A stretch of DNA of 64,000 nucleotides from NCBI GenBank assembly GCA_001898505.1, contig MKTZ01000003.1, positions 1-64,000 of the forward strand, read 5' to 3'. Source of the stretch: Sphingobacteriales bacterium 50-39. GTDB lineage: Bacteria > Bacteroidota > Bacteroidia > Chitinophagales > Chitinophagaceae. Numbering within the stretch: the stretch's first letter is position 1; each line of letters begins with the position of its first letter. This document shows positions 32,406 through 52,347 of the stretch, piece by piece. Position numbers and translations under genes: made by a program. The notes under the pieces are model-generated. The model searched no databases. It saw only the letters and a list, made by a program, of their open reading frames with translations, and was not told where the DNA came from.

Positions 32406-32747
32406 ATGAGAAACGAATCGAAGTTGAGGATCATAAAGATCCTTCACACGGCGGTGTGGCTTTTTTTCAATGTCGTTATTTTCTATATGCTATATGCCGT
32501 GATCATGGACAGGATCGGGATTTGGTTATGGATAGGCTATGGGCTAGTCATCCTGGAAGGGCTGGTATTGCTGTTCTTTAACTTCTTTTGCCCCCTGACG
32601 ATCATAGCCAGGAGGTATTCCAATTCAGATAAAGATAATTTCGACATTTACCTTCCCAATTGGCTGGCGAAATACAATAAGCTGATCTACACTTGTATCA
32701 TGGGGGTTATCCTGGCCATTACGGTCGTTCGGCTTATTTATCGCTAA
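32406..32747 (+). CDS. Small membrane protein, 113 aa
   Basis: Three or four hydrophobic helices are visible (ILHTAVWLFFNVVIFYMLYAVI; IGIWLWIGYGLVILEGLVLLFFNF; LIYTCIMGVILAITVVRLIY). Between the second and the last is a conserved-looking loop CPLTIIARRYS followed by NFDIYLPNWLAKYNK. That loop recalls small DUF2784-like membrane proteins of Bacteroidota, but I cannot name the function. It lies 14 nt after the protease and its last 14 bases overlap the end of the convergent formylglycine-enzyme gene. Confidence 0.65.
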   Translation: MRNESKLRIIKILHTAVWLFFNVVIFYMLYAVIMDRIGIWLWIGYGLVILEGLVLLFFNFFCPLTIIARRYSNSDKDNFDIYLPNWLAKYNKLIYTCIMGVILAITVVRLIYR

Positions 32748-33828
32748 TACACCGGAACCCGAGATGTTCCAGTCCGCTGTCCTCTGTCGTCTTCATACGG
32801 CGGGATACACGATAGCCTGTGCAGTAGCTTTCATTACACAAGAAAGAGCCGCCCCGGATGGACCTCTTCTTTGCGAAGGGCTCGTCGGGGTCGTAGCTTT
32901 TAGTGGGGCCTTTTGGGTCTTTTGTTCCTTCAGGCACCTGTTTATAGTAATTGTAATCGTAATAGTCCGCACACCATTCCCATACATTCCCTGCCATATC
33001 GTACAGGCCGTAGCCATTGGGGAAGAAGGAGCCTACAGGCGCCGTGTAATAGAATTGATCATCTTCCGTATTCTTGTCCGGGAAATGGCCGTCCCAGAAA
33101 TTGCCTTTGTGTTTTCCTTTATCTACACCTTCATTTCCCCAAGGGTAGATGTTGTCCTTCAGTCCACCCCGTGCCGCATATTCCCATTCCGCCTCCGTAG
33201 GGAGGCGTTTGCCCGCCCATTTGCAGTAGGCCGTGGCGTCTTCCCAGGAAACCTGAACTACGGGAAAGTTCTCTTTTCCTTTCAGGTCGCTGCCCGGGCC
33301 GTGGGGGTGTTTCCAGCTGGCGCCCTGTTTCCAGGCCCACCATTGGCTGTAGTCGTCCAGTGGTACAGGGTGGGAAGGGGGAGCAAATACGAGTGATGCC
33401 GGTACCAGCAGGCTTTCATCGGGCTTGGGTGTCCCCGGCGGCAGGTCTTTTTTTAGCTGTTCCCAATCCGGCTTGCGTTCCGCCGTCGTCACGTAACCTG
33501 TGGCTTTGACAAAAGCGGCAAACTGCGCGTTTGTCACCTCGGTCTTGTCCATCCAAAAGCTGTTGACTGTTACCGTGTGTTTGGGATATTCATCCGGCTG
33601 CGCCTGGGCATTGTCGCCGCCCATTTTGTAAACGCCGCCTTCGATCCAGACCATACCGGGGTGTTTAGGGTCTCCCTTCACGCTAAAGCGTGAAGGGAGG
33701 TTGGATTCGCAGGATACAGTTTTCGATGTGTGACTCGCAGTAGTATCTTGTACGGATGCCTGCTGTTGGCGATCGTGGCAGGAGACCAGAAATATTGTTG
33801 CTATCAGGATTCTTTTACTGTAAATCAT
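32734..33828 (-). CDS. Formylglycine-generating enzyme (SUMF1/FGE), predicted lipoprotein
   Basis: 364 residues from the ATG at 33828 (14-nt overlap with the hydroxylase gene). FGE oxidises the active-site Cys of type I sulfatases to formylglycine. Family motifs include MVWIEGGVYKMGG, TEVTNAQFAAFV, VSWEDATAYCKWAGKRLPTEAEWEYAARGG, and GYGLYDMAGNVWEWC. Unlike many SUMF-fold proteins it keeps the copper-binding Cys pair, Cys331-NESY-Cys336, in RGGSFLCNESYCTGYR. The N-terminus (ILIATIFLVSC) is a lipoprotein signal with Cys17, which would put the enzyme outside the cytoplasm, near the two exported sulfatases in the same operon. Confidence 0.92.
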   Translation of the reverse strand: MIYSKRILIATIFLVSCHDRQQQASVQDTTASHTSKTVSCESNLPSRFSVKGDPKHPGMVWIEGGVYKMGGDNAQAQPDEYPKHTVTVNSFWMDKTEVTNAQFAAFVKATGYVTTAERKPDWEQLKKDLPPGTPKPDESLLVPASLVFAPPSHPVPLDDYSQWWAWKQGASWKHPHGPGSDLKGKENFPVVQVSWEDATAYCKWAGKRLPTEAEWEYAARGGLKDNIYPWGNEGVDKGKHKGNFWDGHFPDKNTEDDQFYYTAPVGSFFPNGYGLYDMAGNVWEWCADYYDYNYYKQVPEGTKDPKGPTKSYDPDEPFAKKRSIRGGSFLCNESYCTGYRVSRRMKTTEDSGLEHLGFRCISDK

Positions 33829-34891
33829 ATAAATACTTTTTTCCAACAAAGTCCTCTTCTTCTTTTTCGAGGGTCGGAGAGATGTAGCCGGGTGCTTCGT
33901 CCGTGACCTCAGGGCCTCCCGCCGAGAGCTCACTCCCTTCTTTTCGGGACTTAAAGATAGGCCAAAGAAACTGAGCATACCATTCTTCACCCTGGTAGTA
34001 TTCCAAACCGTAGGCTTTTGGATATCGCCGTGTGATAATACCCGTCCCAAAGAGCACATCCCAGATAAAGAACATATTCCCAAAATTCCCCTTATAATGT
34101 CCTACCCCGTCATCGTTGCTGGCAGCATGATGCGCGTGATGCGTGGCCGGCGTGGAGATCAACCGTTCCAGGACCCAGGCCAGCGGGTGCAGCCATCGCC
34201 GGCTATACAGGGGTTTGTCCCAGGGGATGCTGGAATGAGCTGCCAGTGTAATCAGGGATTTCACTCCCGTCACCAGCAGGGCAGCATAGCCAAGTCCAAG
34301 GTAGGTCATTGCTGCCGTCAAATAGATCTGGGAGAAAAAGATGGTATAAATGATGTTTTGACGGCTGGCCATTGCCATACCCATATAGGGCGCCGAGTGA
34401 TGCGTCCGGTGGAATCTCCAAAGAAAAGGCACCTGGTGATGGAGGCGGTGATACCAATACTGCGTCAGATCATCCGCCACGGCTATGATCAGAAAGCCCC
34501 AGAACAAGGGCACCCAGGTAAATACACCCTTCAGTCCAGGGAGCAGGAGAGGCAACATCCATAATGTAAAATAGACAACAGTGGGGCGGATGATGATCTT
34601 TGATCCGAAAAAGCATACCAGGTCCAGGATCTTTTCATTCTTCGTCCACCGTTTGTCATACAATCCCAGCAGGAACTCGGCCACTCCGACACCCAGGGTC
34701 AGTACAGGCAAACCCCAGGAGCTGAGATTTTCAAATACCGCCCGTAGTATGGGAATGGAAGGCGTTACCGGCGGGCGCAGCCAGGGCCTATCGCCCGTGA
34801 TGTATAACCAGGCGCCCATCAGCAAGAGGGGAAGAGCGTATAAGAACAGGCTTATAGTGCCATCCCGCAGGATATTTTTTTTCAAAGGCAT
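33815..34891 (-). CDS. Sterol desaturase / fatty acid hydroxylase family membrane di-iron enzyme
   Basis: 358-residue integral membrane protein with the histidine clusters that bind two irons: HRLHH (148-152), HRTHH (161-165) and HHAHH (251-255). Four or more helices surround them (ISLFLYALPLLLMGAWLY; VYFTLWMLPLLLPG; VPLFWGFLIIAVAD; IYLTAAMTYLGLGYAALLV). The family oxidises C-H bonds of lipids or sterols with O2. A charged C-terminal tail of about 60 residues follows (SGG... KEEEDFVGKKYL). The gene overlaps FGE and lies downstream of two sulfatases, so its substrate may be the desulfated product, for example a lipid or sterol alcohol; this is inference. Confidence 0.85.
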   Translation of the reverse strand: MPLKKNILRDGTISLFLYALPLLLMGAWLYITGDRPWLRPPVTPSIPILRAVFENLSSWGLPVLTLGVGVAEFLLGLYDKRWTKNEKILDLVCFFGSKIIIRPTVVYFTLWMLPLLLPGLKGVFTWVPLFWGFLIIAVADDLTQYWYHRLHHQVPFLWRFHRTHHSAPYMGMAMASRQNIIYTIFFSQIYLTAAMTYLGLGYAALLVTGVKSLITLAAHSSIPWDKPLYSRRWLHPLAWVLERLISTPATHHAHHAASNDDGVGHYKGNFGNMFFIWDVLFGTGIITRRYPKAYGLEYYQGEEWYAQFLWPIFKSRKEGSELSAGGPEVTDEAPGYISPTLEKEEEDFVGKKYLYDLQ

Positions 34892-34901
34892 AAAAAAGGG
34901 T

Positions 34902-35015
34902 TTAAATGTGTTGAATAAATTTTAACCCGAGGAAGAAGATCAGGAATGGCACTACCGCGAGCACGATGCCGATGAGGATCTTCCGGGCGAGTATGATGAT
35001 ATCTTGGTAGGTCAT
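34902..35015 (-). CDS. Putative 37-residue membrane peptide
   Basis: A short frame sits precisely between the sulfatase stop (35026) and the hydroxylase start (34891). It encodes M-T-Y-Q-D-I-I-I-L-A-R-K, one strongly hydrophobic helix (ILIGIVLAVVPFLIFFLGL) and a basic KFIQHI end. The spacing of 10 nt on each side and the helix with flanking charges suggest a real small membrane protein, perhaps a partner of the hydroxylase. There is no homology evidence. Confidence 0.5.
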   Translation of the reverse strand: MTYQDIIILARKILIGIVLAVVPFLIFFLGLKFIQHI

Positions 35016-35025
35016 AGTATGGCGA

Positions 35026-36882
35026 TTAAGGGTGAGCGACAATGGGCGCATTCCGATGTATTCTTCTGTGGAAGACATCGTCCCAGTCGATGAGGGGATA
35101 GATATTGTATTTTGTAGCATTCTCGTCGAACAAGGCTTTTAATGCCGCCAGTTTTTCAGGATATTTTTTTGCCAGGTCGATGCGTTCATTAAAGTCATCG
35201 TTGAGGTTGTACAATTCCCAGACGTCGCTGTCGAAGCTGTGCTGTGAGGCGCTGTCCTTACCGAAAGTCACACCGCTGCGCAGCAGGTCGATGATGTCCG
35301 GATGGTGGAGTGTCTCCGCCTTCCAGCCATCTTTATAGATGGAGCGGGCGCCAAAGATGTAGTAGTATTGTTCCGTATGGCGGGAAACGGCTTTGGCGTC
35401 GGAAAAAGAGTAGACGAGAGATGTGCCCTGTATGCTGTCCTGTGCTATGCCCCGGATGGAGGAGGGAGTTTTGATATTCAGGAACTCCAGGGTGGTCGGC
35501 AGCAGGTCGATGACATGGCCATATTGCGTACGTATCTCTCCTTTGGCCGCGATGCCTTTGGGATAATATACGATCAGCGGATTGCGGGTACCTCCTTCTG
35601 CATTGGCGTCCTGTTTCCAGTATTTGAAGGGGGTATTGGCCGCCTGTGCCCAGCCCAGGGGGTAGTTCGTCTGTTTGCCATCGGGGGTGCCTATTTCACC
35701 GATCTTGTCCAGGTTGTCCTTTATGGCCTGCTCGTCCGATGGGGCTTTCGAAAATACTTCCTTATTGATCACGCCGTGGAAGGTGCCTTCCTTACTGGCG
35801 CCATTGTCGCCGATGACGATAAAGATCAGGGTGTTGTCCAGCTGGCCGGACTCTTTCAGGAAATTTACCAGCCTGCCGACCTCAAAGTCCGTGTAGGTGA
35901 GGTAGCCTGCATATATCTCCATGAAGCGGGCATAGAGCTTCTTTTCGTCCGGAGTCAGTGTATTCCAGGCTGCGACATTGGGATTACGTTCCGGCAACTG
36001 TGCCGAGGCCGGTAGGATGCCTTTGCGTTTTTGGTTTTCAAATACCTTCTGCCGGAAGACATCCCAGCCTTCGTCGAACTGTCCTTTGTAAGCGTCGCTC
36101 CAGTATTTATCTACCTGGTGCGGGGCGTGTGTGGCTCCAGGGGAGTAATAGAGGAAGAAGGGTTTGTTGGGCGCTGCCTTTTTCTGACGACGGATATAGC
36201 CGATGGCCTTGTCCGTGATCTGGTCGTTGAGATGCCGGCCATCCGGCGTGACATGGGCGTTGTCTTCTACGAGGTCCGGCTGGTATTGGTCTGTCTGTGA
36301 TCCCAGGAAGCCAAAGAAGTGTTCGAAGCCTTTGCCGCTGGGCCAGCGATCGAAAGGGCCTGCGTCCGTGGCGTCCTCGTCGGGGGTAAGACCATATTTG
36401 CCCACTGCAAAAGTGTTATAACCATTGTCGCGTAATATTTCTGCGATGGTGCCTTTGGTAGAAGGGATGCGCCCGTCCCAGCCGGGGAAGCCAGCCGAAA
36501 GTACCGTGTGCGAAAATCCGCCTTCGTGTACGGAATGATGATTACGGCCTGTCAGCAGGGCCGAGCGGGTAGGAGCGCAGATACCAGCTGTGTGAAAATT
36601 GGTATAGCGTAATCCGTTTGCCGCCAGGCTGTCAAAAGTAGGTGTGTGTATCAGGCCGCCAAAAGTGCTGGTAGCGCCAAAGCCTACATCGTCCAGAATG
36701 ATCCAGATGACGTTGGGAGCGCCCGCCGGTGGTTTGACCGGGTCCGGCCACCATTCTTTTGAATCGGACAGGGTCTTGCCGACCGTGCCCTGGTATGTTT
36801 GCGTCTGTTGGGCTTTTACAGGAATAAAGGCAAGGCTGCTGCCAGCCAGAAGGGCCCATTGTATGAGTCTTTTTGTATACAT
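35026..36882 (-). CDS. Type I arylsulfatase (Sec-exported)
   Basis: 618 residues with a signal peptide ending near VKAQQ. The sulfatase fold begins at NVIWIILDDVGFGATSTFGG, with metal ligands Asp64-Asp65. The formylglycine signature C-x-P-x-R is at Cys102 in GICAPTRSALLTGRN, so activation by FGE (32734-33828) is required. The later metal site is IFIVIGDNGASKEG (Asp-Asn). Overall layout recalls the Pseudomonas arylsulfatase type (PAS), which hydrolyses small aryl or alkyl sulfates, not sulfated polysaccharide. A paralog lies at 37753. Acts in the periplasm. Confidence 0.93.
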   Translation of the reverse strand: MYTKRLIQWALLAGSSLAFIPVKAQQTQTYQGTVGKTLSDSKEWWPDPVKPPAGAPNVIWIILDDVGFGATSTFGGLIHTPTFDSLAANGLRYTNFHTAGICAPTRSALLTGRNHHSVHEGGFSHTVLSAGFPGWDGRIPSTKGTIAEILRDNGYNTFAVGKYGLTPDEDATDAGPFDRWPSGKGFEHFFGFLGSQTDQYQPDLVEDNAHVTPDGRHLNDQITDKAIGYIRRQKKAAPNKPFFLYYSPGATHAPHQVDKYWSDAYKGQFDEGWDVFRQKVFENQKRKGILPASAQLPERNPNVAAWNTLTPDEKKLYARFMEIYAGYLTYTDFEVGRLVNFLKESGQLDNTLIFIVIGDNGASKEGTFHGVINKEVFSKAPSDEQAIKDNLDKIGEIGTPDGKQTNYPLGWAQAANTPFKYWKQDANAEGGTRNPLIVYYPKGIAAKGEIRTQYGHVIDLLPTTLEFLNIKTPSSIRGIAQDSIQGTSLVYSFSDAKAVSRHTEQYYYIFGARSIYKDGWKAETLHHPDIIDLLRSGVTFGKDSASQHSFDSDVWELYNLNDDFNERIDLAKKYPEKLAALKALFDENATKYNIYPLIDWDDVFHRRIHRNAPIVAHP

Positions 36883-36891
36883 TTTTAATTC

Positions 36892-37743
36892 TTAATTAGA
36901 GATGGTGATAAAACCGTATGCGTGATCGTATGTCTGTCCTTTTGTGATTGCCCACTGGAGGAAGTCCGCGATGTTCTTATCCTGTCCGTTGTTACGCCAC
37001 AGGACGTGGACATCTTCCAGGGGTATTTTGGGATGGTGAGTTCTCTCGACAAAGTCAATGACCTGATCCAGCGAACTGTAGAAGTCTTCGTCGCTATCGA
37101 TACGTCCATTTCCGTTGAGGTCGATGGGAATGATGGCGATGCTATCGACCGGCCGGCGGGTGGACAGGTTATAGAGAAAGCCCAGGTTGTTGTAGGATAT
37201 GCCGCCCGTGTCCTTTTTTACTGCAGCCAGCAGGTCTTTGTCATCACCTGTGACACCGACACCTGTTATATCCTTTTGTTCGCTGCCGAAATGGTTGGCA
37301 AAGGAAATGCTGGCGCAGGCAGGCTGCTGACGTTTGTAGACCGTGAACTGATAGGGCGAAGGCGATTGACCTGTGGCGGAGAAATATACCCGCCGGAATG
37401 CCGAGTCGTCGAAGCCACGGGATTGCAGGCCGGCCACATCCTTCCTGTGGAAGTTGACTACCGGTAATTGAACATAGCGGGTAACTACTTCCTCCCTCCA
37501 ACCTTGTTTAAGATCGCTGGCGCCCAACTTGTGACTGACGATGAGGAGGTCGGCGCTGTCGGCAGGCATCCTGGCTACTATGAACTTTACACCAGGATGA
37601 AGACGGCTATATTCGTCGGTCCAACGCTGGAATAACGGGTATACCAGCCGGGTGCCCGTGATCCGGATCGTGGTTGTCTGCTGGGCCTCCGAGTTAGTAA
37701 GTAAGGAGAGGCATATACCGGAGAATAGCAATAGCTTTTTCAT
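36892..37743 (-). CDS. PstS-like periplasmic substrate-binding protein
   Basis: 283 residues with a signal peptide (LLLFSGICLSLLTNSEAQQ). The start TIRITGTRLVYPLFQRWTDEYSRLHPGVKF is that of the PstS-like anion-binding superfamily. The DSADLLIVSHKLGASD loop and the TGGISYNNLGFLY hinge are also typical. Residues 208-219 (D-L-N-G-N-G-R-I-D-S-D-E) form a perfect EF-hand-like calcium loop, which is unusual for this fold. No transporter permease is nearby, so it may bind a sulfate ester or released anion and hand it to other proteins. It sits between two sulfatase genes in the same operon. Confidence 0.75.
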   Translation of the reverse strand: MKKLLLFSGICLSLLTNSEAQQTTTIRITGTRLVYPLFQRWTDEYSRLHPGVKFIVARMPADSADLLIVSHKLGASDLKQGWREEVVTRYVQLPVVNFHRKDVAGLQSRGFDDSAFRRVYFSATGQSPSPYQFTVYKRQQPACASISFANHFGSEQKDITGVGVTGDDKDLLAAVKKDTGGISYNNLGFLYNLSTRRPVDSIAIIPIDLNGNGRIDSDEDFYSSLDQVIDFVERTHHPKIPLEDVHVLWRNNGQDKNIADFLQWAITKGQTYDHAYGFITISN

Positions 37744-37752
37744 TGTCGTGGT

Positions 37753-39603
37753 TTATTTGATCAAGGCCTGTGTATCGCTGCCGTTGGGATGATGTATGCG
37801 TTTGTTGTATACATCGTACCAGTCGATGAGGGGGTAGAGATGATTTTTCTCTGCCTGCTCGTCGAATATTTTTTTCAGCTCGGCCAGTTTTTCAGGGAGT
37901 TTTTTTGCCAGGTCGTTCCGTTCATTGAAATCTTCTTTCAGATTGTACAGCTCCCATGTGTCGTCGTCGAAGCTTTTGTCGGTGACCGTCTGTCCCGGCC
38001 GGAAGTCGAAGTCGATGTTGTCCGGATGGTGGGCTGCTTCCGCCTTCCAGCCATTGTAATAAATGGATCGCGATCCAAAAATATAATAGTGCTGTACTAC
38101 GTGCCGGGAGGCCGACTGCTCATCGTCAAAGGAATAAACGAGGGAAGTGCCCTGTACAGAATCCTGCTTGACACCGCGGATAAGATCTGGCTTGGGAAGA
38201 CCCAGGATCTCCAGGGTGGTGGGCAGCAGGTCGATGACATGACCGTATTGGCTGCGGATGCCGCCTTTTTCTTTTATGCCTTTTGGATAGAATGCGATCA
38301 GGGGGTTGTGCGTGCCGCCTTCGGCGTCCGCATCCTGTTTCCATTCACGGAAGGGCGTGTTGGCAGCTTGGGCCCATCCCAATGGGTAGTTGGCGGAGCC
38401 CTGCGGCGTGCCGATGGAATCGATGTTTTCCAGGTTGGTCTTTAAGAAGTCGGGTTCGGTCTTCAAACGGGCTGAGTTTGTTCTTGGCGTAATGACCCCT
38501 TCATAGGTGCCTTCTTTGCTGGCGCCGTTGTCGCCGATGATGACAAAGACGAGAGTATTGCTCAGCTGGTTCGTCTCGCGTAAATAGTTCACCAGTCTTC
38601 CGATCTGGTAATCTGTATAGGTGAGATAGCCTGCGTATACTTCCATAAACCGGGCAAAGAGCTTTTTCTGATCGGTCGTCAGCGAAGCCCAGGCCTGGAT
38701 GCGGGGGTTACGGGCAGGGAGCTGTGCGTATGCAGGAACGATGCCTTGTTTTTTCTGATTGGCCAATACCTTTTCCCGGAAGGCATCCCAGCCTTCGTCG
38801 AATTTTCCCTTGTATTGATCGCTCCAGTATTTGTCTACCTGGTGCGGCGCATGTGTGGCTCCCGGTGCATAATAAAGGAAGAAGGGTTTGTCCGGCGCCA
38901 GGCGGTGTTGGCGGGCAAGATAGCTGATGGCCTTGTCCGTGATCTGCTCGTTGAGGTGGCGTCCGTCGGGTGTGACGTGTGTGTTGTCCTCTACCAGGTC
39001 GGGTTTGTACTGGTCTGTTTGAGAACCAAGGAACCCAAAGAAGTGATCGAATCCTTTGCCGCTGGGCCAGCGGTCGAAGGGGCCCAGGTCCGTGGCGTCC
39101 TCATCCGGTGTCAATCCGTATTTACCTACTGCATAGGTGTTATAACCATTTTGTCTTAGGATCTCTGCGATGGTCCCATCGCTGGAAGGTATCCTGCCAT
39201 CATAGCCGGGGAAACCGGCCGACGTGGAGATGTGGGAGAAGCCTCCTTCGTGCACGAAATGGCTATTGCGACCTGTCAGCAAGGCCGAGCGGGTAGGAGC
39301 GCAGATAGCACAGGTGTGGAAATTGGTATAACGGAGACCGTTGTTAGCCAGGCTGTCCAATGTAGGCGTGCGTATCACGCCGCCAAAAGTGCTGGTGGCG
39401 CCGAAACCGACGTCGTCCAATATGATCCATATCACGTTGGGCGCGCCTGCCGGCGCTTTGGGGACCGGCGCCCACCATTCTTTCGAATCCGCCAGGGTCT
39501 TGCCTGCGACCCCCTGGTAGGGTTGTTCCTGTGCAGAGACGTTAGAGGAAGATAAAAAACCGATGGTTGATACGATAGCTGTAAAGGAAAGAAACTTTTT
39601 CAT
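37753..39603 (-). CDS. Type I arylsulfatase (Sec-exported), paralog
   Basis: 616 residues, collinear and clearly homologous along its length with the sulfatase at 35026. The signal peptide ends near VSAQ. Asp63-Asp64 are in IILDDVGFGATSTFGG, and the formylglycine Cys101 is in ICAPTRSALLTGRN. The second metal motif is VFVIIGDNGASKEG. The C-terminal sulfatase domain includes NPLIAFYPKGIKEKGGIRSQYGHVIDLLPT. The stop is two bases from nothing but a short gap before the binding-protein gene, and the SusD stop precedes its start by one base. Two paralogs suggest two substrate shapes or regiochemistries. Confidence 0.93.
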   Translation of the reverse strand: MKKFLSFTAIVSTIGFLSSSNVSAQEQPYQGVAGKTLADSKEWWAPVPKAPAGAPNVIWIILDDVGFGATSTFGGVIRTPTLDSLANNGLRYTNFHTCAICAPTRSALLTGRNSHFVHEGGFSHISTSAGFPGYDGRIPSSDGTIAEILRQNGYNTYAVGKYGLTPDEDATDLGPFDRWPSGKGFDHFFGFLGSQTDQYKPDLVEDNTHVTPDGRHLNEQITDKAISYLARQHRLAPDKPFFLYYAPGATHAPHQVDKYWSDQYKGKFDEGWDAFREKVLANQKKQGIVPAYAQLPARNPRIQAWASLTTDQKKLFARFMEVYAGYLTYTDYQIGRLVNYLRETNQLSNTLVFVIIGDNGASKEGTYEGVITPRTNSARLKTEPDFLKTNLENIDSIGTPQGSANYPLGWAQAANTPFREWKQDADAEGGTHNPLIAFYPKGIKEKGGIRSQYGHVIDLLPTTLEILGLPKPDLIRGVKQDSVQGTSLVYSFDDEQSASRHVVQHYYIFGSRSIYYNGWKAEAAHHPDNIDFDFRPGQTVTDKSFDDDTWELYNLKEDFNERNDLAKKLPEKLAELKKIFDEQAEKNHLYPLIDWYDVYNKRIHHPNGSDTQALIK

Positions 39604-39604
39604 A

Positions 39605-41182
39605 TTAATTCCATCCCGGGTTTTGTTGAAAATTTGGATTACGTCCTCCGTAGAGATCGATCTCTGTCTGAGGTATGGGGAATAAAGTATCCTTTAAAGC
39701 AGCTGCCGCCTTTGGATTCCCCGGCATGGCTTTTACCGACTGCAGATAATACTGTCCGGGGCCAAGATCTGTCCTTCTCACGAGGTCGAACCAGCGCTGG
39801 GATTCCTGGATAAATTCCTTTCTCCTTTCCGTAAAGACCGCGTCCCGGAAGTCAGATGCGCTCAGGCCCGGGGACAGGTCATATGTGTGGTCCGTATAGG
39901 AGCCGCTGCTGGTGTAGGATCTGTAGGCCCTGGCCCGGACGATGTTGATGGCTGTATAGGCGTCTGCCGTGGGGCCGCCGTTGAGCTCGTTCAATGCTTC
40001 CGCGTATAACAGCAGGACCTCGGCGTAGCGTATCACCGGGAAGTTGATCTTGCTGTTGGCCCCCTGATTGCCCTGCAGCGCCGTAACGAAACCTGTGCTT
40101 TGGTCCACGAATTTGAGGAAGTTGAAGAAGGGCCATTTCACCCATTTGCCTGTAGTCTGGTTGAAAAGGCTGTCATAGAAAGTGGCGTCCCTGCGCTGGT
40201 CGGCGATGTCGAAAATATGGACCACGCTGCTGTCCGCGGGGATATCCGCCGTATAGGCCGAATTGCTCCAGGTGAAAGAGCTGAGCGTATTTGTGCTGGT
40301 AAAGCCTCCTGTCGTCCCGTTGAACTGGGCGGAGAAGATATGTTCCTTACCGTTCTTGGTAGCCGCCTGGAAGGCGTCGGAGAATTTTGTGAAAAGGTCG
40401 TAGCCATAATTACCTGTGGTGGCGTCGATGAGACCTGCTGTACCTGTTGTGATGACCTTTCTCAATTCCGTCACCGCATGGCTCCAATCGTGACGGGTGA
40501 CATATACCTTGGCCAGCAGGGCATGGGCTGCGCCGCTGGTGACCCTTCCCAAATTGGCGCCTGTATAGGATGCCGGGAGCAGCGTGGCCGAATCCAGGTC
40601 CGTAATGATCTGGGCGTACACGGAGTCTTTTGGAGCGCGACTTACCAGCGTTCCTGCAGCCGCCACTGTTGCCTGGTCATGCAGGACCAGGGACACCGGG
40701 CCAAAGAGCCTCACCAGGTCGAAGTAGAGCAAGGCCCGGATAAAGCGCGCTTCGCGGACGAGGTTGGCGGCGGAGTGCGAGGGGTCTACGAACTGAGCGG
40801 CCGGTATGGTTGGGATCTTGTCGATGGCAATATTGGCCCGGTTGATCCCCCAGTACAACTGTGCATATATTTTATGCACCCTGTCGTTTGTGGTCACATA
40901 GGTGGCCGTGCCCAATGCCCGTACGTCCGGATTGGTATTGGAAGGGCTGTATACCTGGTTGTCGCTGGGATTGTCCACGACGAGGTTCAGGTTGCGGCCA
41001 TAAATGGGGAAGTCGTTGTTGATATCTGTTGTCAGCGTGCTGTATACTGCCGTGACGGCTGCCACTGCATCGCTTTGTGTTTGGTAAAAGTTTTCGGGAG
41101 TGAGGTTGCCCTGCGGGTGCTCGGTCAGCTTTTTGCAGGAGAACGATGCCCCCAGCATAAGCAATAATCCTATCTTTTTCAT
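39605..41182 (-). CDS. SusD/RagB family outer-membrane binding lipoprotein
   Basis: 525 residues. Lipoprotein signal IGLLLMLGASFSC with Cys16, then KKLTEHPQGNLTPENFYQT, the usual SusD opening. TPR-like helices follow (NIAIDKIPTIP, LVREARFIRALLYFDLVRLFGPVSLV). The C-terminal region has the typical INIVRARAY, and TERRKEFIQESQRWFDLVRRTD, and ends PFPIPQTEID-like (LFPIPQTEIDLYGGRNPNFQQNPGW). It is the surface lid of the SusC transporter encoded 20 nt upstream. The ligand is probably a sulfated or otherwise small organic compound given the operon. Confidence 0.95.
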   Translation of the reverse strand: MKKIGLLLMLGASFSCKKLTEHPQGNLTPENFYQTQSDAVAAVTAVYSTLTTDINNDFPIYGRNLNLVVDNPSDNQVYSPSNTNPDVRALGTATYVTTNDRVHKIYAQLYWGINRANIAIDKIPTIPAAQFVDPSHSAANLVREARFIRALLYFDLVRLFGPVSLVLHDQATVAAAGTLVSRAPKDSVYAQIITDLDSATLLPASYTGANLGRVTSGAAHALLAKVYVTRHDWSHAVTELRKVITTGTAGLIDATTGNYGYDLFTKFSDAFQAATKNGKEHIFSAQFNGTTGGFTSTNTLSSFTWSNSAYTADIPADSSVVHIFDIADQRRDATFYDSLFNQTTGKWVKWPFFNFLKFVDQSTGFVTALQGNQGANSKINFPVIRYAEVLLLYAEALNELNGGPTADAYTAINIVRARAYRSYTSSGSYTDHTYDLSPGLSASDFRDAVFTERRKEFIQESQRWFDLVRRTDLGPGQYYLQSVKAMPGNPKAAAALKDTLFPIPQTEIDLYGGRNPNFQQNPGWN

Positions 41183-41202
41183 GATCCTGTTTTTTTCTTT
41201 GA

Positions 41203-44200
41203 TTAAAAAGTCACGTTGACGCCTACCGTATAAGACCTGGTGTTCGGGTATACACCGTAGTCGATGCCCGGCTGCAGGTTGTTCTGATCATAGAAGTTCA
41301 CTTCCGGGTCCAGGCCTTTGTAGTGCGTAATGGTCAGCAGGTTTTGTGCAGAGATATAGACCCTGATCTGTTTGGCCAGGATCTTTGCGGCGAGGTCCTT
41401 GGAGAAATTATATCCAAGCGTGATATTCTTCAGCCGGATGTATGATCCGTCCTCGATATAGACATCTGCTACCTGTACCACCGGTGCGTTCACCACTTTT
41501 GGAGTTCTTCCGCGAGGGTTGGCGAGCGAGTCCCAGCGATCGAGCAGGGTGGTCGATACATTTTGGGTAGTGGTCGTCTTTTCCAGCTGCTGTTGCAGGA
41601 GGTTGAAGATCTTATTGCCAAAGGAACCCTGGAGGAAAACCGACAGGTCAAGGTTTTTGTAAGTAAGGGTGTTGCTGAAGCTGGCCGTGAATTTTGGCTG
41701 TGCATTTCCCAGGTTGTGTTTGTCGGCTGTGGTGACAAGTCCATCCCCTGTGATGTCGACATATTTTCTATCACCCGTGACCTGGGAGACGCCCGTCAGC
41801 TTGGGAGCTGTTTTTGAGCCATACACATCTGAAGTCGTCAGCAGGCCGGCCGTGCTGTATCCCCAGAAAGTGCCTACAGGCAATCCGACCTTGACGATGA
41901 CGGGGGATACCTGTCCTGTCGGTGCGATGGGGAAGAAAGACTGGCTGGGTCCCAGGCTCAATACCTTGTTGGCATTGGCTGCATAGATAAGTGATGAACG
42001 CCAGGTGAAGTCCCTGGCCCGAATGTTCTCTGTATTCAAGGTAAGCTCCACGCCCTTGTTCTCCAGGCTGCCGATGTTCTCGGAGGCGGAGGCATAGCCC
42101 GAGGAGAGGGGTACCAATCCAGCTCCTGTGATAAACAGGTTCGTGGTCTTCTTATAGTATACATCTGCTGTTAGGTTGATGCGTCTGGACAGCAGGCTTA
42201 CGTCTACTCCCGCATTGTATTGTGTGGTAGTTTCCCAGGTGAGGTCGGGGTTGGATAGCTGCGAGGGGGCCAGGCCGTTGGTGGCCGTCAAAGCACTACC
42301 GAAGTAATAGCCATAGGAAGTAAGCGTCGACAGGGAGCTGTAGGCCGGGAAATTGGCGTTGCCCACGCTGCCAGCCGTCAAGCGGAGTTTCAGGCTGTTG
42401 ATCGTGCCGGACAATTTCTGAAAGAAATTTTCATCGGAGACATTCCAGGAGAATCCGACGGAGGGGAAGAAGCCCCATTTTTTATTGGCTCCTGCCGGAG
42501 ATGCGCCATCTGCACGGCCTGTCAAGGTGAGGTTATACCGGTGCCGGAAGGAATAGCTCACCCTTCCCAGCCAGGAATTGCGTGTTTGGAGCGCTTCGCC
42601 CGAGCCCGTCACTTTGTTGACCGATGCATTATACAGGTTGTTGTAAGTGGTGGCATCGGAGGAAAAGGACTGTCCTGCCAAAAAAGTATTTTCAGATTTT
42701 TGATATTGCGTCGTGTAGCCTATGAGGGCGTCCAGGAAGTGCTTGTCCCCAAATGCGTGATTATAGGCTACTGTATTCTCGTTGAGCCAACTTGTGTAGT
42801 TGATCGTTCCAACGGAGCCCGAGCCTGTGATCGTTCCGCCGTTGTTGCCCAGGGTGGTGTAGGAGGGGGCGTAGTAGTTGAGCTTGGTATTCAGCAGGTC
42901 GATGCCGAATGTGGATTTAACCAGCAGGTCGCTTGTAATCCTGTATTCGCCCGAGACATTGCCCAGGATATGGGATAGTTTTGTCTGGTTGATCGTCGAG
43001 GCGATGTCCTGTATGGAGTTGTCGGAGAATTGCTGGCCGCTGATGGTATTCAGCGTGGGATTGATGGCCGGCTGTGGCGCTGTGTTGTAGGTGCCATCCG
43101 TGTTCTTCACGGGCTGCAAGGGGTTGTTAAGATAAAGAGAGGAAAAGGCGTTGCCAAACCCGATGCCGTTGTAGGCTGTACCCGTCAGCTTGTTTTCCAC
43201 GGAATTGCTGCCGAAGATGCTGCTGGCCAGCTTGAAATTTTTTGAATAATTTTTTTCATAGTTGAACCTGCCCGAGTACCGGGTAAAGTCGGTGGCCAGG
43301 ACGATGCCCCGCTGGTTGAAATAATTGCCGGACAGGGAGTACCTGGATTTCTCATCACCGCCGTAGACAGTCAGCTGATGATTTTGAAGGGCGCCTGTGC
43401 GAAGGGCTGCGTCGACCCAGTCCCCGTTGACTCCTGCGGCGCCCAGCGAATCGATGAGCTTTTTATTGGCGGCCAATCCCGCCTGGATAGTGGGTGTTGC
43501 GGCGTAGAGGTCGTCGAAAAGCTTTGCCCACTGGGAGCCGTTGAGCACAGGCAGCGTCTTTCCGGCCCGTTGAACGCCATAGCTTCCGCTGTAGGAGATG
43601 TTATTGCTGTTCTTTGTTCCTCTTTTTGTCGTGATGATGACCACGCCATTGGCGCCCCTTGAGCCGTAGATGGCCGTGGCGCTGGCGTCCTTCAATACGT
43701 CGATGGACTCGATGTCAGAGGGGTTGATGGTGGATAGCCCATTGGAGGTCGCTCCCGTGACGGAGGGTACCGTACCCGAGTTGGGCGCCAGGTTGGTGAG
43801 ACTGTTGTCGTTGTAATAGATAAACCCGTCGATGACGAAGAGCGGATCATTACCGAAGCTCAATGAGTTGCCGCCCCTGATACGGATCGTAGCTGTGGCG
43901 CCCGGCTGTCCCGAGCTTTGATTGACCACTACGCCTGCCACTGCGCCCTGTAACAGATTGTCAAATGAAGAGGTGGGTCGTGTGAGCACGTCCTTGGGAA
44001 CCGTGGCCACCGAGCCTGTGACATCGCTACGACGCTGGGTCCCGTAACCGACAACCACTGCTTCGGTGAGTGCGGCACTGCCTCCTTTTAACTCGATGTC
44101 GAGATGACCATAGCTTGTGACCGGGATCTCGCGGCCCTGGTAGCCTACATAGCTGACGAGGTATACCAGCGGCACGTGCTGACCCGTTATGAATTTGAAT

Positions 44201-44403
44201 TCGCCGTTGTTGTCCGTAGATACTTCGTGTGTTGTCCCCTTTATATGTACTGTGGCGCCTGCCAGGGGTTCTTTTGTCTTTTCGTCGATGACCCTTCCCC
44301 AGAGCGAAACGTTGGTGGTCTGTGAGCGGGCGGAAGAAAGGAGAATGAGAATGGATAATACTCCTGCTGAGGTATATTTTATATACCTTTGAAACAGATT
44401 CAT
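41203..44403 (-). CDS. SusC/RagA family TonB-dependent outer-membrane transporter
   Basis: 1066 residues. Signal peptide (LSILILLSSARSQ), a carboxypeptidase-regulatory-like beta-sandwich (about 30-115: VIDEKTKEPLAGATVHIKGT), the TonB box region with VVVGYGTQRRSDVTGSV, the plug domain (about 125-250, SATAIYGSRGANGVVIITTKRG), then a 22-strand barrel ending NTRSYTVGVNVTF. No STN anti-sigma-interaction domain is present, and no sigma/FecR pair is nearby. It energises import of the ligand captured by SusD. First gene of the sulfatase operon, with a TATCTTTG promoter about 220 nt upstream. Confidence 0.95.
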   Translation of the reverse strand: MNLFQRYIKYTSAGVLSILILLSSARSQTTNVSLWGRVIDEKTKEPLAGATVHIKGTTHEVSTDNNGEFKFITGQHVPLVYLVSYVGYQGREIPVTSYGHLDIELKGGSAALTEAVVVGYGTQRRSDVTGSVATVPKDVLTRPTSSFDNLLQGAVAGVVVNQSSGQPGATATIRIRGGNSLSFGNDPLFVIDGFIYYNDNSLTNLAPNSGTVPSVTGATSNGLSTINPSDIESIDVLKDASATAIYGSRGANGVVIITTKRGTKNSNNISYSGSYGVQRAGKTLPVLNGSQWAKLFDDLYAATPTIQAGLAANKKLIDSLGAAGVNGDWVDAALRTGALQNHQLTVYGGDEKSRYSLSGNYFNQRGIVLATDFTRYSGRFNYEKNYSKNFKLASSIFGSNSVENKLTGTAYNGIGFGNAFSSLYLNNPLQPVKNTDGTYNTAPQPAINPTLNTISGQQFSDNSIQDIASTINQTKLSHILGNVSGEYRITSDLLVKSTFGIDLLNTKLNYYAPSYTTLGNNGGTITGSGSVGTINYTSWLNENTVAYNHAFGDKHFLDALIGYTTQYQKSENTFLAGQSFSSDATTYNNLYNASVNKVTGSGEALQTRNSWLGRVSYSFRHRYNLTLTGRADGASPAGANKKWGFFPSVGFSWNVSDENFFQKLSGTINSLKLRLTAGSVGNANFPAYSSLSTLTSYGYYFGSALTATNGLAPSQLSNPDLTWETTTQYNAGVDVSLLSRRINLTADVYYKKTTNLFITGAGLVPLSSGYASASENIGSLENKGVELTLNTENIRARDFTWRSSLIYAANANKVLSLGPSQSFFPIAPTGQVSPVIVKVGLPVGTFWGYSTAGLLTTSDVYGSKTAPKLTGVSQVTGDRKYVDITGDGLVTTADKHNLGNAQPKFTASFSNTLTYKNLDLSVFLQGSFGNKIFNLLQQQLEKTTTTQNVSTTLLDRWDSLANPRGRTPKVVNAPVVQVADVYIEDGSYIRLKNITLGYNFSKDLAAKILAKQIRVYISAQNLLTITHYKGLDPEVNFYDQNNLQPGIDYGVYPNTRSYTVGVNVTF

Positions 44404-44478
44404 GTTAATGCTATTTTGTCGTTAATGTAATCCGATGAAGATCAGTAAGTGATTGGCGTTACGGACTGATCTCGTCCT

Positions 44479-44511
44479 GGCCGGCAGGAATAATCCTGCC
44501 GGTCTTTTTTT
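44479..44511 (+). terminator. Strong hairpin with T-run in the SusC leader region
   Basis: CCGGCAGGA-ATAA-TCCTGCCGG forms a 9-bp perfect stem, followed on the plus strand by TCTTTTTTT. In plus orientation it would be an intrinsic terminator, although no plus-strand gene precedes it. In minus orientation it lies in the susC 5' leader, where the stem would form without a U-run after it. Confidence 0.6.
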
Positions 44512-44615
44512 AGGGGGATATCGATTACACCCGACATCGGGCAGGCTGGTATCTTGTCATGATGATAGTTTTGGATTAAGAAAATGCTTTGGCAGCAATA
44601 AGTGTGGTGGTTGGG

Positions 44616-44648
44616 CAAAGATAAGGCAAAAAATATTAGTCTACCAAA
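44616..44648 (-). promoter_or_regulatory. Promoter of the susC-sulfatase operon
   Basis: On the minus strand TTTG (44645-44648) and a perfect TATCTTTG (44616-44623) are 21 nt apart. This gives a leader of about 200 nt before the susC ATG, containing the hairpin at 44481-44502. Confidence 0.65.
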
Positions 44649-44663
44649 TTAGTAGAGAATTAA

Positions 44664-45806
44664 ATTAAGAAACTGATCTGGTGTATCCTGCAAAGCAATT
44701 CCCCGTCGGATGGGAATCTGAGCAGTGACATCGACAATCATCAGCAGCCTGCGCCCACTGCTGTCGGTACGCCTGTCGGGGGACCATCATCCAAGGTCAT
44801 CGGGGCTGCCGGTGGGGTGATCTATTCGCTGGACAGCGTATTAAAATTAACCATACCTGCCGGGGCTTTGGCTTCCAATACCAATATCAGCATCCAGCCC
44901 GTGACCAACCAGCTGCCTGGGGGGCTTGGACTGGGCTATGACCTGTTGCCCAATGGAACCCGGTTCAGCGTACCCGCCACCGTCACCTTTCATTATACCA
45001 GCGACCAGGTGAGTGATAACCATCCTTATTTCCTGAATATCAGTCATTTTACCATTTTCGGGATCCAGGATGGTATTGCCGTGCTTGCCGTACCCCGGGA
45101 GATCATGACGGGTCAGACCAGCAGCGTGACGATCTTCGAGTCTATCGTGATAAAGCAGGACAGCAGCTATATTACATCATCGACGGATATACCCACGGAT
45201 TTTGTGGGCCAGTGGACCGTCAATGGGGGCCCCAATGGAAACAGCAGCATAGGTACCGTCTCCGGCAGCGGCGCCAATGTGGTCTATCATGCCCCTGCGA
45301 ATCTCGATGCCCCCATCGAGGTATTGGTAGAGTGCCAGCTCAAGATGCATGAGATCATTTTCATAGGGAATCAGAAGATCGATCTTTTAAGACCTAAAAG
45401 AGGAGTATTGATCCGGGTGTGGCCATATAAAGAATATGATTTTACGGTGAAGCTCTTTTATTATGACAGCACGATCTCCTCTTTTTATGGGCAGACGCCA
45501 AACCCTCCGGTATATTCCGACCATGCGCAGTTCGACGTGCATCTCAAGGCCAAGCTCGATGCGCCGGTGATAGAGATGAGCAATCTCCAGAATTATCCTC
45601 CGGAGGTAAGCTCGGCCACCTATACTTTGGGCAATACCGTATGGACATGGGTACCCGACCCCTATGGAATGATGGATGTTTCAAGCCTGACCCTGAACCA
45701 TGAGACGATCATGGCCGATAGTCTTGTTACCGTATTTGTCAATCATGCCAATGCCACGCTGTATGGGTATGTGCTTTATACAAATGGAATATTGCCGAAG
45801 CAGTAA
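44664..45806 (+). CDS. ZU5-like domain protein, start uncertain
   Basis: The frame is open from an in-frame stop at 44661-44663 to 45806, but contains no ATG early on; GTG at 44817 is the first plausible start, yet it falls inside the recognisable domain. The domain signature IGAAGGVIYSLDSVLKLTIPAGALASNTNISIQP is a ZU5-like module that usually follows a lipoprotein signal and linker in Bacteroidota surface proteins. A linker (NHQQPAPTAVGTPVGGPSS) is present upstream, but no signal peptide is. The 5' end has probably been lost or altered. The rest is beta-rich, with an SVTIFESIVIKQD strand and a Ig-like middle. Function unknown. Confidence 0.6.
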   Translation: MKKLIWCILQSNSPSDGNLSSDIDNHQQPAPTAVGTPVGGPSSKVIGAAGGVIYSLDSVLKLTIPAGALASNTNISIQPVTNQLPGGLGLGYDLLPNGTRFSVPATVTFHYTSDQVSDNHPYFLNISHFTIFGIQDGIAVLAVPREIMTGQTSSVTIFESIVIKQDSSYITSSTDIPTDFVGQWTVNGGPNGNSSIGTVSGSGANVVYHAPANLDAPIEVLVECQLKMHEIIFIGNQKIDLLRPKRGVLIRVWPYKEYDFTVKLFYYDSTISSFYGQTPNPPVYSDHAQFDVHLKAKLDAPVIEMSNLQNYPPEVSSATYTLGNTVWTWVPDPYGMMDVSSLTLNHETIMADSLVTVFVNHANATLYGYVLYTNGILPKQ

Positions 45807-45839: not shown

Positions 45840-46958
45840 TCAATGCCGGACCTTCCAGTATGCTGTAGTACCTGGTTTGCGTTCGTCCGTAGCCTTGACC
45901 AGCAGGGTATCGCCTGCTGCAAGTTTGCCCAGGATCTCCGTTCCCTTGTCGGTGGCGATGCCCTGGCCTACGTCCACCCATTCTGCTTTATTGTCTTTTA
46001 CGCGGATGACGAATTTCTTTTCCTGGGTAGTGCTGATGGCAGATGGGGGAACGAGAAAAGATGGTCCGCCCCGTTCCAGGTTGAACTGTGCATAGGCAAA
46101 GGCTCCGCTTTTCAGCTCCCGGTGACTGTTGTTGACCTCGAACTCCCACAGTTCCGTACGGGTAGTGGGGTCGATGGTCTCGCTTTTGCGTGCCAGGACC
46201 GCCGGGAAGCTGCGGCCCGGGTAGGCTTCTACCCGGAAGGGAATGGTATGGGTGGCGCTGGCCGATGCCGTATATGCCTCGGGAACGGCGATGCGCAATC
46301 GAAGCAGGTGATCGTCCTGGATGGTGAGCAGTGGTACCGTCGTGCCTACCAGTGTACCTGCATCCGCCTGGCGCGCCGTAATGACCCCTGTAAAAGGGGC
46401 GATGATATAGAGATAGCCTGATACTTCCTTGCTGGCCTGCGCTTGTTTGCGGGCGGCCTCATATGCCGCGCTGTCGGCCAGCATTTGTTCGAGACCCCGT
46501 TCGAGGTCCACGGGCGCCACGATGCCCGGCGTGGGAGCTTGTGCAGCTCTGTAGAGCCGGAGATAATTATCCTTGCTGCCGGCGTATTTTGCCCTGGCAG
46601 CCTGTAGTGCCGCCTGCATTTCTTCCAGTTTTGTGTCTATTTCGGGGGCTTCTATGATCGCCAGCGTCTGGCCTTTCTGCACCCGTGCGCCGATGTCCAC
46701 TTTCATGGTGCGGACAAATCCCTGGACCTTGGCGTATAATTCTGCGCGTTGATAAGGGATCAGCTCGGCCGGCAGCTCCACTGTCTTTTTTAACGTATCC
46801 GTGTGCAGTATGAAAGCTATTGCCGTATCCTGTGATGGGGCAGCCTGGTGCGTGTTATCCGGTTTTTCATCATGATTACCGCATGCCGTCCAAGTGACGA
46901 GCAGGGCCAGCAGCAGGAACGACGAACTGCGTTTATGAGGGAATGACTGATTGATCAT
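45840..46958 (-). CDS. RND efflux periplasmic adaptor (MFP)
   Basis: 372 residues. Lipoprotein signal FLLLALLVTWTAC with Cys26. A biotinyl-lipoyl-like half (AELYAKVQGFVRTMKVDIGARVQKGQTLAII) is followed by a coiled-coil hairpin (EMQAALQAARAKYAGSKDNYLRLY ... AAYEAARKQAQ). The second lipoyl half (YLYIIAPFTGVITARQADAGTLVG) and a beta-barrel and membrane-proximal domain follow. It joins the inner-membrane pump to the TolC-like channel. Its ATG overlaps the pump gene by 26 nt. Last gene of the efflux operon. Confidence 0.93.
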   Translation of the reverse strand: MINQSFPHKRSSSFLLLALLVTWTACGNHDEKPDNTHQAAPSQDTAIAFILHTDTLKKTVELPAELIPYQRAELYAKVQGFVRTMKVDIGARVQKGQTLAIIEAPEIDTKLEEMQAALQAARAKYAGSKDNYLRLYRAAQAPTPGIVAPVDLERGLEQMLADSAAYEAARKQAQASKEVSGYLYIIAPFTGVITARQADAGTLVGTTVPLLTIQDDHLLRLRIAVPEAYTASASATHTIPFRVEAYPGRSFPAVLARKSETIDPTTRTELWEFEVNNSHRELKSGAFAYAQFNLERGGPSFLVPPSAISTTQEKKFVIRVKDNKAEWVDVGQGIATDKGTEILGKLAAGDTLLVKATDERKPGTTAYWKVRH

Positions 46959-51449: not shown

Positions 51450-51507
51450 ACAGGTGAATTGACGGCAAATTAGGCAAGGCCGACAAGACAGGATGGTAAA
51501 AACGCTG

Positions 51508-52347
51508 CTATTGATGGTGATTTTGAAAATGCACCTTCCGAAACTCTTCCGGGGTAACCTGTTCATGATGCTTAAAGAATTTTATGAAATAAGAAGGGTC
51601 CATAAAGCTCAGCTGGTAAGCGATCTCGTTGATGTGGTTGTCCGTATAGAGCAGGAGACGCCGGGCTTCCCCGATGATATGTTTGTTCAGCACTTCGCTG
51701 GCGCTTTGCCCCGATGCCTTGCGGCAGGCCGCGTTGAGATTTTGGGGTGTGCTGCCCAGCTGTCTTGCCAGCACACCTACTTTTCGCTGGATATTAGGGT
51801 GGGTGAGGAGAAGGTCGACATAGCGGGCGTAGAGCTGGGTCTGTATGCCCGTGTGGAGGAAGGCATGTCGGCCTTTTTCCAGGAGCAGTGCGATCAGGGC
51901 CTTGAGGAGACCGTCGATGCTATGATATTCATAGACAGAGGGGTTTTGGGAATAGGTCACCAATAGGGCAAACAGGCTTTCCAGGTCGCCGGCCTCTTCC
52001 AGGTACAGGCAGTTGGCATGCCATATGAGGGGAAGCAGTTGTTTTAACGATTCATCGCGGCTGTGTTGCAAAAAGGTATTTTTGAAAATGATGACATACC
52101 CTTCCGGCTCATTATCCAGGTCCCAATTATGGACCTGTTCGCGATTGAGAAAAAAGAATACCGGCGGCTTGATATCGTAGCAATGGCCGTCGATCCAGTG
52201 ATGACCGCTGCCGCGGGATAAGAAAATGATCTCGAAATACTGTTTATGTTTATGGGGCGGGGTGACCAATGTACCTTTTCGGAAGGGTTCGATCTTTATA
52301 TGCTTTTCGGGGCTGATCTTGTTCTTGGTTGGAATGTTCTTTTTCAA
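51508..52347 (-). CDS. AraC-family transcriptional regulator
   Basis: 279 residues. An N-terminal cupin-like sensor half (about 15-110: PPHKHKQYFEIIFLSRGSGHHWIDGHCYDI) is followed by a linker. The C-terminal double helix-turn-helix comes at about 180-277 (VGVLARQLGSTPQNLNAACRKASGQSASEVLNKHIIGEARRLLLYTDNHINEIAYQLSFMDPSYFIKFFKHHEQVTPEEFRK). It lies upstream of, and in the same direction as, the TolC-like/RND/adaptor genes. It probably activates them and senses a pump substrate through the cupin half. Confidence 0.9.
   Translation of the reverse strand: MKKNIPTKNKISPEKHIKIEPFRKGTLVTPPHKHKQYFEIIFLSRGSGHHWIDGHCYDIKPPVFFFLNREQVHNWDLDNEPEGYVIIFKNTFLQHSRDESLKQLLPLIWHANCLYLEEAGDLESLFALLVTYSQNPSVYEYHSIDGLLKALIALLLEKGRHAFLHTGIQTQLYARYVDLLLTHPNIQRKVGVLARQLGSTPQNLNAACRKASGQSASEVLNKHIIGEARRLLLYTDNHINEIAYQLSFMDPSYFIKFFKHHEQVTPEEFRKVHFQNHHQ

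Follow-up and report, generated by a model that had tools for sequence, protein, structure and literature searches.

The first 64,000 nucleotides (nt) of contig MKTZ01000003.1 (positions 1-64,000; Sphingobacteriales bacterium 50-39, assembly GCA_001898505.1), hereafter the window, contain an eight-gene operon on the minus strand (32734-44403). The operon starts with a gene for a SusC transporter (ending at 44403), continues with genes for a SusD protein, a sulfatase, a PstS-like protein, a second sulfatase, a 37-residue membrane peptide, and a membrane hydroxylase, and finishes with that for a formylglycine-generating enzyme (FGE). Sequence comparisons indicate that it probably belongs to a sulfur-starvation regulon and scavenges sulfur from sulfate esters. 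Specifically, a palindrome upstream of SusC is common to the operon and to sulfate-assimilation and methionine-uptake genes, which makes sulfur scavenging likely rather than sugar use. Such a role fits the cis site, the FGE, the PstS-fold protein, and the sulfur-handling partners of the operon.

A preliminary description of this stretch had listed these eight genes in this order on one strand, mostly with gaps or overlaps of 0-20 nt. All are present on the minus strand, separated in gene order by 20, 1, 9, 9, 10, and 10 nt, and the hydroxylase and FGE genes overlap by 14 nt. Its overall interpretation is partly supported: the operon is not a usual polysaccharide locus, and it remains likely that a sulfate ester is taken up and desulfated.

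In the pathway we propose, SusCD would import the sulfate ester, and the sulfate would be freed by two periplasmic sulfatases that the FGE of the operon would activate. The membrane di-iron oxygenase and its 37-residue partner would likely oxidize a lipophilic organosulfur compound, freeing or processing its sulfur, while the PstS-fold protein may bind sulfate and the FGE would act in the periplasm. Within this proposal, we are least sure of the hydroxylase step; its reaction may be either oxidative sulfur release or lipid remodeling under sulfur limitation.

A palindrome shared with sulfur genes of the source genome

The consensus of the palindrome is TTAGTCTAY-N7-RTAGACTAA, and the near-palindromic TCTACTAATTTGGTAGACTAA lies upstream of the window SusC. 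This operator-like site (44636-44660, assigned to no strand; ATTCTCTACTAATTTGGTAGACTAA in minus-strand reading) has 3 mismatches to the consensus, scores 28.1 and 27.3 bits with the 22-site and 16-site matrices described below, and is the single site in the window reaching 12 bits or more. It overlaps the upstream box of a Bacteroidetes-type promoter on the minus strand, i.e. TTTG (44645-44648), a 21-nt spacer, and a '-7' box TATCTTTG (44616-44623), both boxes being read by eye against the Bacteroidetes promoter consensus. The palindrome would be the operator of a sulfur-responsive regulator, and its placement over the -33 box suggests a repressor.

Allowing up to 3 mismatches, the palindrome occurs at 19 places in the source genome compared with 8 in the reversed control. 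Eight places have 0-2 mismatches: 2 at cysI and a TonB receptor, 1 at metNIQ, 1 at a SusCD pair, 1 at an ATP-grasp-like gene (assigned by eye), and 3 at genes without assigned role, one of which is beside metNIQ. Those with 3 mismatches are found at cysH, a PhyH dioxygenase gene, a second SusCD pair, this operon, and 7 others, one of which was inspected. For example, one palindrome lies upstream of cysH-cysD-cysN-cobA-cysJ-cysI (C16:15107), two lie between cysI and a TonB-receptor gene with a cysG-TauE pair (C16:22641 and C16:22678), and one separates metNIQ from a divergent ceramidase-like gene (C16:421060). Another (C16:417318) precedes a close one-strand run that is headed by the PhyH dioxygenase gene and ends in an SrpI encapsulin and a cysteine desulfurase (L166:11583-17304). 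CysH, CysD, CysN, and CysI pass their curated NCBIfam cut-offs, and CysJ and MetN are best-matching names under the cut-off. The operon and the genes for sulfate assimilation and methionine uptake in the source genome thus have a cis site in common.

The palindrome is not a general SusC element. It is present at 1 of the 56 scored SusC genes of the source genome (from 187 candidates), with two further SusCD pairs outside these 56 also having it. A short form, TCTAC-N7-GTAGA, is found exactly in 8 of 61 SusC-upstream regions, including that of the window, compared with 0.1% of mononucleotide shuffles. With up to 1 mismatch, it has 1 match in the window against 0.90 expected, which is not significant, and its 9 places genome-wide against 7 in the reversed control make it weak when taken alone.

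The SrpI-type encapsulin and cysteine desulfurase are under the palindrome in two genomes (L166 and L211). The expression of this pair is described as rising upon sulfur starvation in Synechococcus (PMC8049743).

Linkage of the hydroxylase to sulfatases, SusCD, and FGE

Among 147 Chitinophagaceae genomes, a close hydroxylase is encoded in 12, source genome included (13 loci, one genome having two). A sulfatase (E 1e-100 or better) is present in 11 of these 12 genomes and in 7 of the remaining 135 (p = 3e-11); for a strong FGE (E of at most 1e-60), the numbers are 11 of 12 and 50 of 135 (p = 3e-4), so the co-occurrence on which the preliminary description had staked its reading does hold. In the other family genomes, a sulfatase adjoins the hydroxylase in 9 of 12 loci.

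A wider sample of GTDB genomes comprises the best 80 loci of 369 confirmed relatives, and includes Chitinophagaceae, Dyadobacter, Spirosoma, Larkinella, Chryseolinea, Olivibacter, and others. The 12 family loci and these 80 have four contigs in common (L039/L122, L040/L103, L041/L072, and L043/L107). A sulfatase lies within about 10 kb in 71 of the 80 loci, SusD is found in 73, SusC in 64, all three in 57, FGE in 20, and a PstS-like protein in 17. The corresponding numbers for 20 loci of paralogous hydroxylases, one of which spans just 3.6 kb, are 1 (sulfatase), 1 (SusD), 2 (SusC), 0 (all three), 1 (FGE), and 0 (PstS-like). Within the unbroken gene run of the hydroxylase, a sulfatase is found in 56 of the 80 loci, SusCD in 53, both in 46, FGE in 18, a PstS-like protein in 11, and neither sulfatase nor SusCD in 17. 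Six of the 9 loci without a sulfatase (L062, L065, L069, L084, L085, and L093) retain SusCD adjoining the hydroxylase.

Gene order differs among clades, with the hydroxylase coming first in Dyadobacter, which argues for a functional linkage that is not merely inherited. The linkage between hydroxylase and sulfatase is real. In ten Dyadobacter loci, the hydroxylase run has neither SusCD nor sulfatase and is nevertheless preceded by the palindrome, and in nine of these a sulfatase with its own palindrome is found further upstream.

The palindrome across loci and genomes

In other genomes, the palindrome is found at cysHDN..JI clusters (G071 and G060), at genes for a Cys/Met pyridoxal phosphate enzyme of sulfhydrylase type (G145 and G065), and, with 0 mismatches, at an SrpI encapsulin run (G145). 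Dyadobacter palindromes are located at metNIQ, rhodanese-thioredoxin, cysteine desulfurase, and sulfatase-FGE genes, and at a further PF04116 hydroxylase gene near metNIQ. The context of the matches listed for 11 other genomes was examined in selected regions, none of them at the matches of G047, G135, G098, and G058. Of 26 further places, in a set that includes Larkinella and Dyadobacter, 18 are in the viewed regions and 4 in known hydroxylase loci.

In Dyadobacter koreensis, a short-chain dehydrogenase gene (L289:5575-6420) lies between a related hydroxylase gene and metNIQ, with palindromes on both sides.

To score sites, we built a 22-site matrix from matches with up to 3 mismatches that we chose at sulfur-linked genes of six genomes, omitting L220 4414, L238 11094, and L210 5905; the training genomes partly overlap the 80 loci (L072, L103, and L122). 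This matrix finds 100 sites in the 80 loci, which total 1,616,230 base pairs (bp), compared with 0 after shuffling. Of these, 65 sites, in 59 loci, are at most 600 bp upstream of operon genes, i.e. in 6.2% of bases, and 67 of the 80 loci have a site anywhere. A narrower upstream span of 350 bp has a site in 25 of 80 loci compared with 17 of 356 control upstream regions; the span was widened to 600-650 bp because leaders are long.

A 16-site matrix was obtained by removing PhyH, Pst, and YeiH sites, thus keeping the cys-cluster, met, encapsulin, and sulfhydrylase sites. It finds 101 sites in the same 1.616 Mb compared with 1 in shuffles, and 68 of these 101 are at most 650 bp upstream of operon genes (6.7% of the sequence). 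Of the 72 loci that could be scored, i.e. those whose upstream sequence spans 600 bp or more, 59 have a site upstream of the hydroxylase operon. By comparison, there are 3 sites in 379 kb of control loci, and 20 of 339 other genes have one, a number that includes divergent genes sharing the region. Lastly, cysH regions from 14 genomes (cysH was found in 14 of the 16 searched), none of which are in the matrix, were scored for sites of at least 10 bits within about 1.5 kb, and a site is present in 7 of 7 Chitinophagaceae.

SusCD, sulfatases, FGE, and the PstS-like protein

The SusC-type TonB-dependent outer-membrane transporter (41203-44403, minus strand; 1066 residues) scores 823 bits against TIGR04056 (cut-off 368) and is followed by a SusD-type surface lipoprotein (39605-41182, minus; 525 residues; PF07980 and PF14322). 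Both sulfatases match PF00884 and have an export-type N-terminus. Sulfatase A (37753-39603, minus; 616 residues) has AtsA entries as its closest solved chains, and sulfatase B (35026-36882, minus; 618 residues) is closest to AtsA entries and to 7all, which may be BT4683. The formylglycine motif C-A-P-T-R is present in both. Their proximity to AtsA and their C-x-P-T/S-R motif fit subfamily S1_4, to which AtsA (1hdh) is assigned (PMC5066984); the S1_4 number was given here by nearest relative and not by SulfAtlas.

Both operon sulfatases have GKYG at the place of GKWH in AtsA, so that the catalytic histidine of the second motif is absent. This place is also occupied by glycine in 34 of 45 sulfatase homologs with at least 55% identity within the 80 loci. 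In choline sulfatase, His104 is reported to coordinate the nucleophile (PMC5870055), and its equivalence to the GKWH histidine is our own reading. The histidine is kept in 19 of 19 longer sulfatases (about 770 residues) of sister clusters, at an identity of at least 55%.

For the FGE (32734-33828, minus; 364 residues; PF03781, 284 bits), we take ATG 33828 as the start, which gives a lipoprotein-type signal (LVSC, by eye); in the program-made list, the open reading frame (ORF) begins at TTG 34083, within the hydroxylase gene. Alignment with solved FGEs reveals that it retains the C-x4-C active-site pair (CNESYC). Among 18 FGE-like neighbors with at least 44% identity, all have an export-type N-terminus by a crude and lax rule, and 17 have the Cys pair, the remaining one being a 115-residue fragment. 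Many cluster FGEs (L050-L119) have an N-terminal Cys-bearing stretch with P-S-R (e.g. SCESNLPSRF and CKVPSR) that recalls the sulfatase modification motif. A FAD-dependent, phytoene-desaturase-like oxidoreductase (about 480 residues, by eye) recurs next to sulfatase and FGE genes (L112:705-2144, L286, L291, and L296).

The PstS-like binding-type protein (36892-37743, minus; 283 residues, export-type N-terminus) is under the family cut-offs, with 21.9 vs 27 bits in Pfam and 22.2 vs 205 bits in NCBIfam. It has a PstS-type fold as predicted by AlphaFold2 (pLDDT 88), and Foldseek ranks 1-34 for this model are all phosphate-binding proteins (TM-scores 0.5-0.7).

The hydroxylase and its 37-residue peptide

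The membrane di-iron-type hydroxylase (33815-34891, minus; 358 residues) scores above the PF04116 cut-off and has the histidine boxes of the FA_hydroxylase superfamily. The histidines of HRLHH and HRTHH are invariant among 49 sequences, and the HHAHH region is more than 90% conserved. OlsE (NF052566) is the sole NCBIfam model that matches this protein, and at 42.6 bits the match is far under the cut-off of 475. Its AlphaFold2 model (pLDDT 70.6, with much of the catalytic half <60) has no Foldseek match below E = 1, and we draw nothing from it.

The peptide (34902-35015, minus) has one hydrophobic stretch, and its homologs adjoin hydroxylase genes. Specifically, an ORF of 36-60 residues resembling it sits upstream of the hydroxylase in 80 of 80 loci (lowest score 52) and in 12 of 12 hydroxylase loci of the family genomes (lowest score 58), compared with a top score of 31 in 306 control regions. 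An Asp, a Lys, and a Pro residue are conserved without exception in the 81 peptides compared.

A rhodanese-family protein is encoded within the hydroxylase run in 6 of the 80 loci, at least some with a thioredoxin domain and a signal-type N-terminus, and a PF03601 YeiH-type transporter in 2. Among 120 of 2810 public homologs, two (P0026 and P0047) are hydroxylases fused to rhodanese-thioredoxin via a hydrophobic stretch (by eye). These fusions and sulfur-handling neighbors suggest sulfur chemistry at or near the hydroxylase. Tentatively, hydroxylase and peptide may be the two parts of a new membrane di-iron oxygenase, which would act with periplasmic rhodanese-thioredoxin to release sulfur by oxidation of lipophilic sulfate esters or sulfonates, within a hitherto undescribed Bacteroidota sulfur regulon marked by the palindrome.

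Two other kinds of neighbors were seen. A multihaem cytochrome c554-type protein with TPR repeats is encoded between the hydroxylase and PstS-like genes in one genome (L043:3579-5855). Small proteins of 84-93 residues (e.g. L166:16156-16416 and L055:11366-11647) are found beside sulfur-site genes and 3' of the Niastella/Longitalea hydroxylase; that they form one family is a judgment by eye.

Alternative explanations

Several results weigh against a sulfur-starvation regulon. In 13 of the 72 loci scored with the 16-site matrix, no site was found upstream of the hydroxylase operon, and the cysH regions of Dyadobacter, Larkinella, Spirosoma, and Olivibacter (Cytophagales/Sphingobacteriales) have a site in 0 of 7. 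Most genomes have fewer sites than the reversed control or not many more: counts with 3 mismatches are 4 vs 11 (G114), 5 vs 17 (G047), 13 vs 18 (G135), 7 vs 9 (G098), and 9 vs 11 (G055), and Larkinella has 1 place vs 3. Because raw counts are often no higher than in the control, we rely on the position and context of the sites. The palindrome also precedes a Porin_O_P-PstS-PstC-type operon, a phosphate transporter according to family models, in two genomes, and three of the eight closest matches in the source genome are at genes without assigned role. As the second-motif histidine is missing in both sulfatases, their activity is not assured. Finally, the peptide-hydroxylase pair adjoins IucA/IucC siderophore synthetases without a sulfur site in Chitinophaga solisilvae (L105:1109-9787) and in a second genome (G006; L049:15618-19234), so the chemistry of this pair need not concern sulfur.

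These two siderophore clusters keep alive another reading, which we consider possible and clearly less probable than sulfur scavenging by the operon as a whole: the pair would remodel the cell's own membrane lipid under nutrient stress (e.g. to a sulfonolipid-sparing or hydroxylated lipid) and leave the imported substrate untouched, with the sulfatases alone scavenging sulfur. The FA_hydroxylase superfamily acts on lipids, and OlsE, far under its cut-off, is the only NCBIfam match. Sulfonolipids are described in Bacteroidetes outer membranes (PMC9304779), which also speaks for lipid remodeling. By contrast, the rhodanese-thioredoxin fusions and the place of the pair inside SusCD-sulfatase operons point to sulfur chemistry.

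The preliminary description had proposed that the freed alcohol is oxidized, i.e. that the locus serves carbon catabolism by taking up a sulfated lipid or small sulfate ester, desulfating it, and hydroxylating the alcohol for degradation. One operon does unite SusCD, sulfatases, and an oxygenase, and an SdsA-type alkylsulfatase (PF14863 and PF14864) lies between two sulfatases in one locus (L045). A short-chain dehydrogenase is present in 6 of the 80 loci, always outside the hydroxylase run, as well as in the Dyadobacter koreensis locus, and GH89 in 4 of 80 would also be in line with degradation. We nevertheless reject this proposal as improbable: the promoter palindrome is that of cys and met genes, the ten Dyadobacter hydroxylase runs stand alone behind it, and no catabolic run was seen. 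Specifically, no CoA ligase or beta-oxidation gene was recognized among the 24 protein clusters present in at least 5 of the 80 loci, a scan that covered some of all protein clusters.

An ordinary polysaccharide utilization locus (PUL) for a sulfated glycan, whose glycosidases were lost or never present, is more improbable still. The operon has the SusC/SusD pair of a PUL, and S1_4 also contains BT4683, described as a 3-O-sulfogalactose sulfatase (PMC10154612). As such, the sulfatases are PAS-like by sequence, as the preliminary description had put it, but its 'small-ester type' does not follow from this likeness. In 4 of the 80 loci, each from Niastella/Longitalea, a GH89 alpha-N-acetylglucosaminidase is encoded 3' of the hydroxylase, and L047 has a putative glucoamylase next to the hydroxylase on the opposite strand, which goes narrowly against the same description, according to which relatives should not have such genes beside the operon. 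In L116 and L125, a GH30 gene comes after a second SusCD pair. For 56 of the 80 unassigned in-run proteins of at least 130 residues, the first 25 of 98 listed Pfam families include GH89 (2) and GH30 (1), and neither a glycoside hydrolase nor a lyase was found in the operon or in the scanned neighbors (sets of 10 and 3 ORFs, part of the window's ORFs), in agreement with the original claim. Together with the sulfur-type promoter site, the rarity of these genes in relatives leads us to reject a polysaccharide locus.

Genes flanking the operon

An RND efflux set (HlyD, AcrB, and OEP families; 45840-51566) and an AraC-type regulator (51508-52347) adjoin the operon, and its other flank encodes a Met-zincin, an MFS transporter, and a phosphoglucomutase. 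No Pfam family matched the ORFs at 44817-45806 and 28695-29843.

Comparison with known systems

In the open-licence literature, we found no paper joining the parts of this operon, and no such sulfur regulon for Bacteroidota. By default, SusCD loci are taken to serve sugar use, and this one bears a sulfur-gene site; part of the sulfatase-bearing Bacteroidota SusCD loci may thus serve sulfur. The palindrome offers a cis site through which sulfur control can be tested in this phylum, and a tiny conserved membrane peptide and its oxygenase subfamily are singled out with a clear assay condition.

Proteobacterial sulfate-starvation regulons (cys/ssu/tau/ats-type, e.g. in Pseudomonas) tie sulfatase, oxygenase, and uptake genes to sulfate assimilation. 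The operon likewise combines sulfatases, an oxygenase, and uptake genes with a tie to sulfate assimilation, but differs from them in importing through SusCD, in having an FGE of its own, and in its cis site, which is of another, unnamed kind. Its oxygenase is of the membrane di-iron type, whereas those of Proteobacteria are alpha-ketoglutarate or flavin enzymes. With Bacteroidota PULs containing S1 sulfatases, it shares the SusC/SusD pair and formylglycine-type sulfatases; unlike these, it has no glycosidases or lyases and has the sulfur-gene palindrome upstream. The C-x-P-T-R motif is common to the operon sulfatases and S1_4 AtsA, which differ in having GKYG and GKWH, respectively. The SrpI-cysteine desulfurase encapsulin described from Synechococcus (PMC8049743) has its counterpart here in the same pair under the palindrome, outside this operon.

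The domain and histidine boxes of the hydroxylase resemble those of PF04116 sterol desaturases, OlsE, and alkylglycerol monooxygenase. It nevertheless represents a separate PF04116 subfamily, as its next paralogs in the family genomes searched are about 31% identical and its small partner accompanies it at every one of the 80 loci. The analogy with alkylglycerol monooxygenase is tentative.

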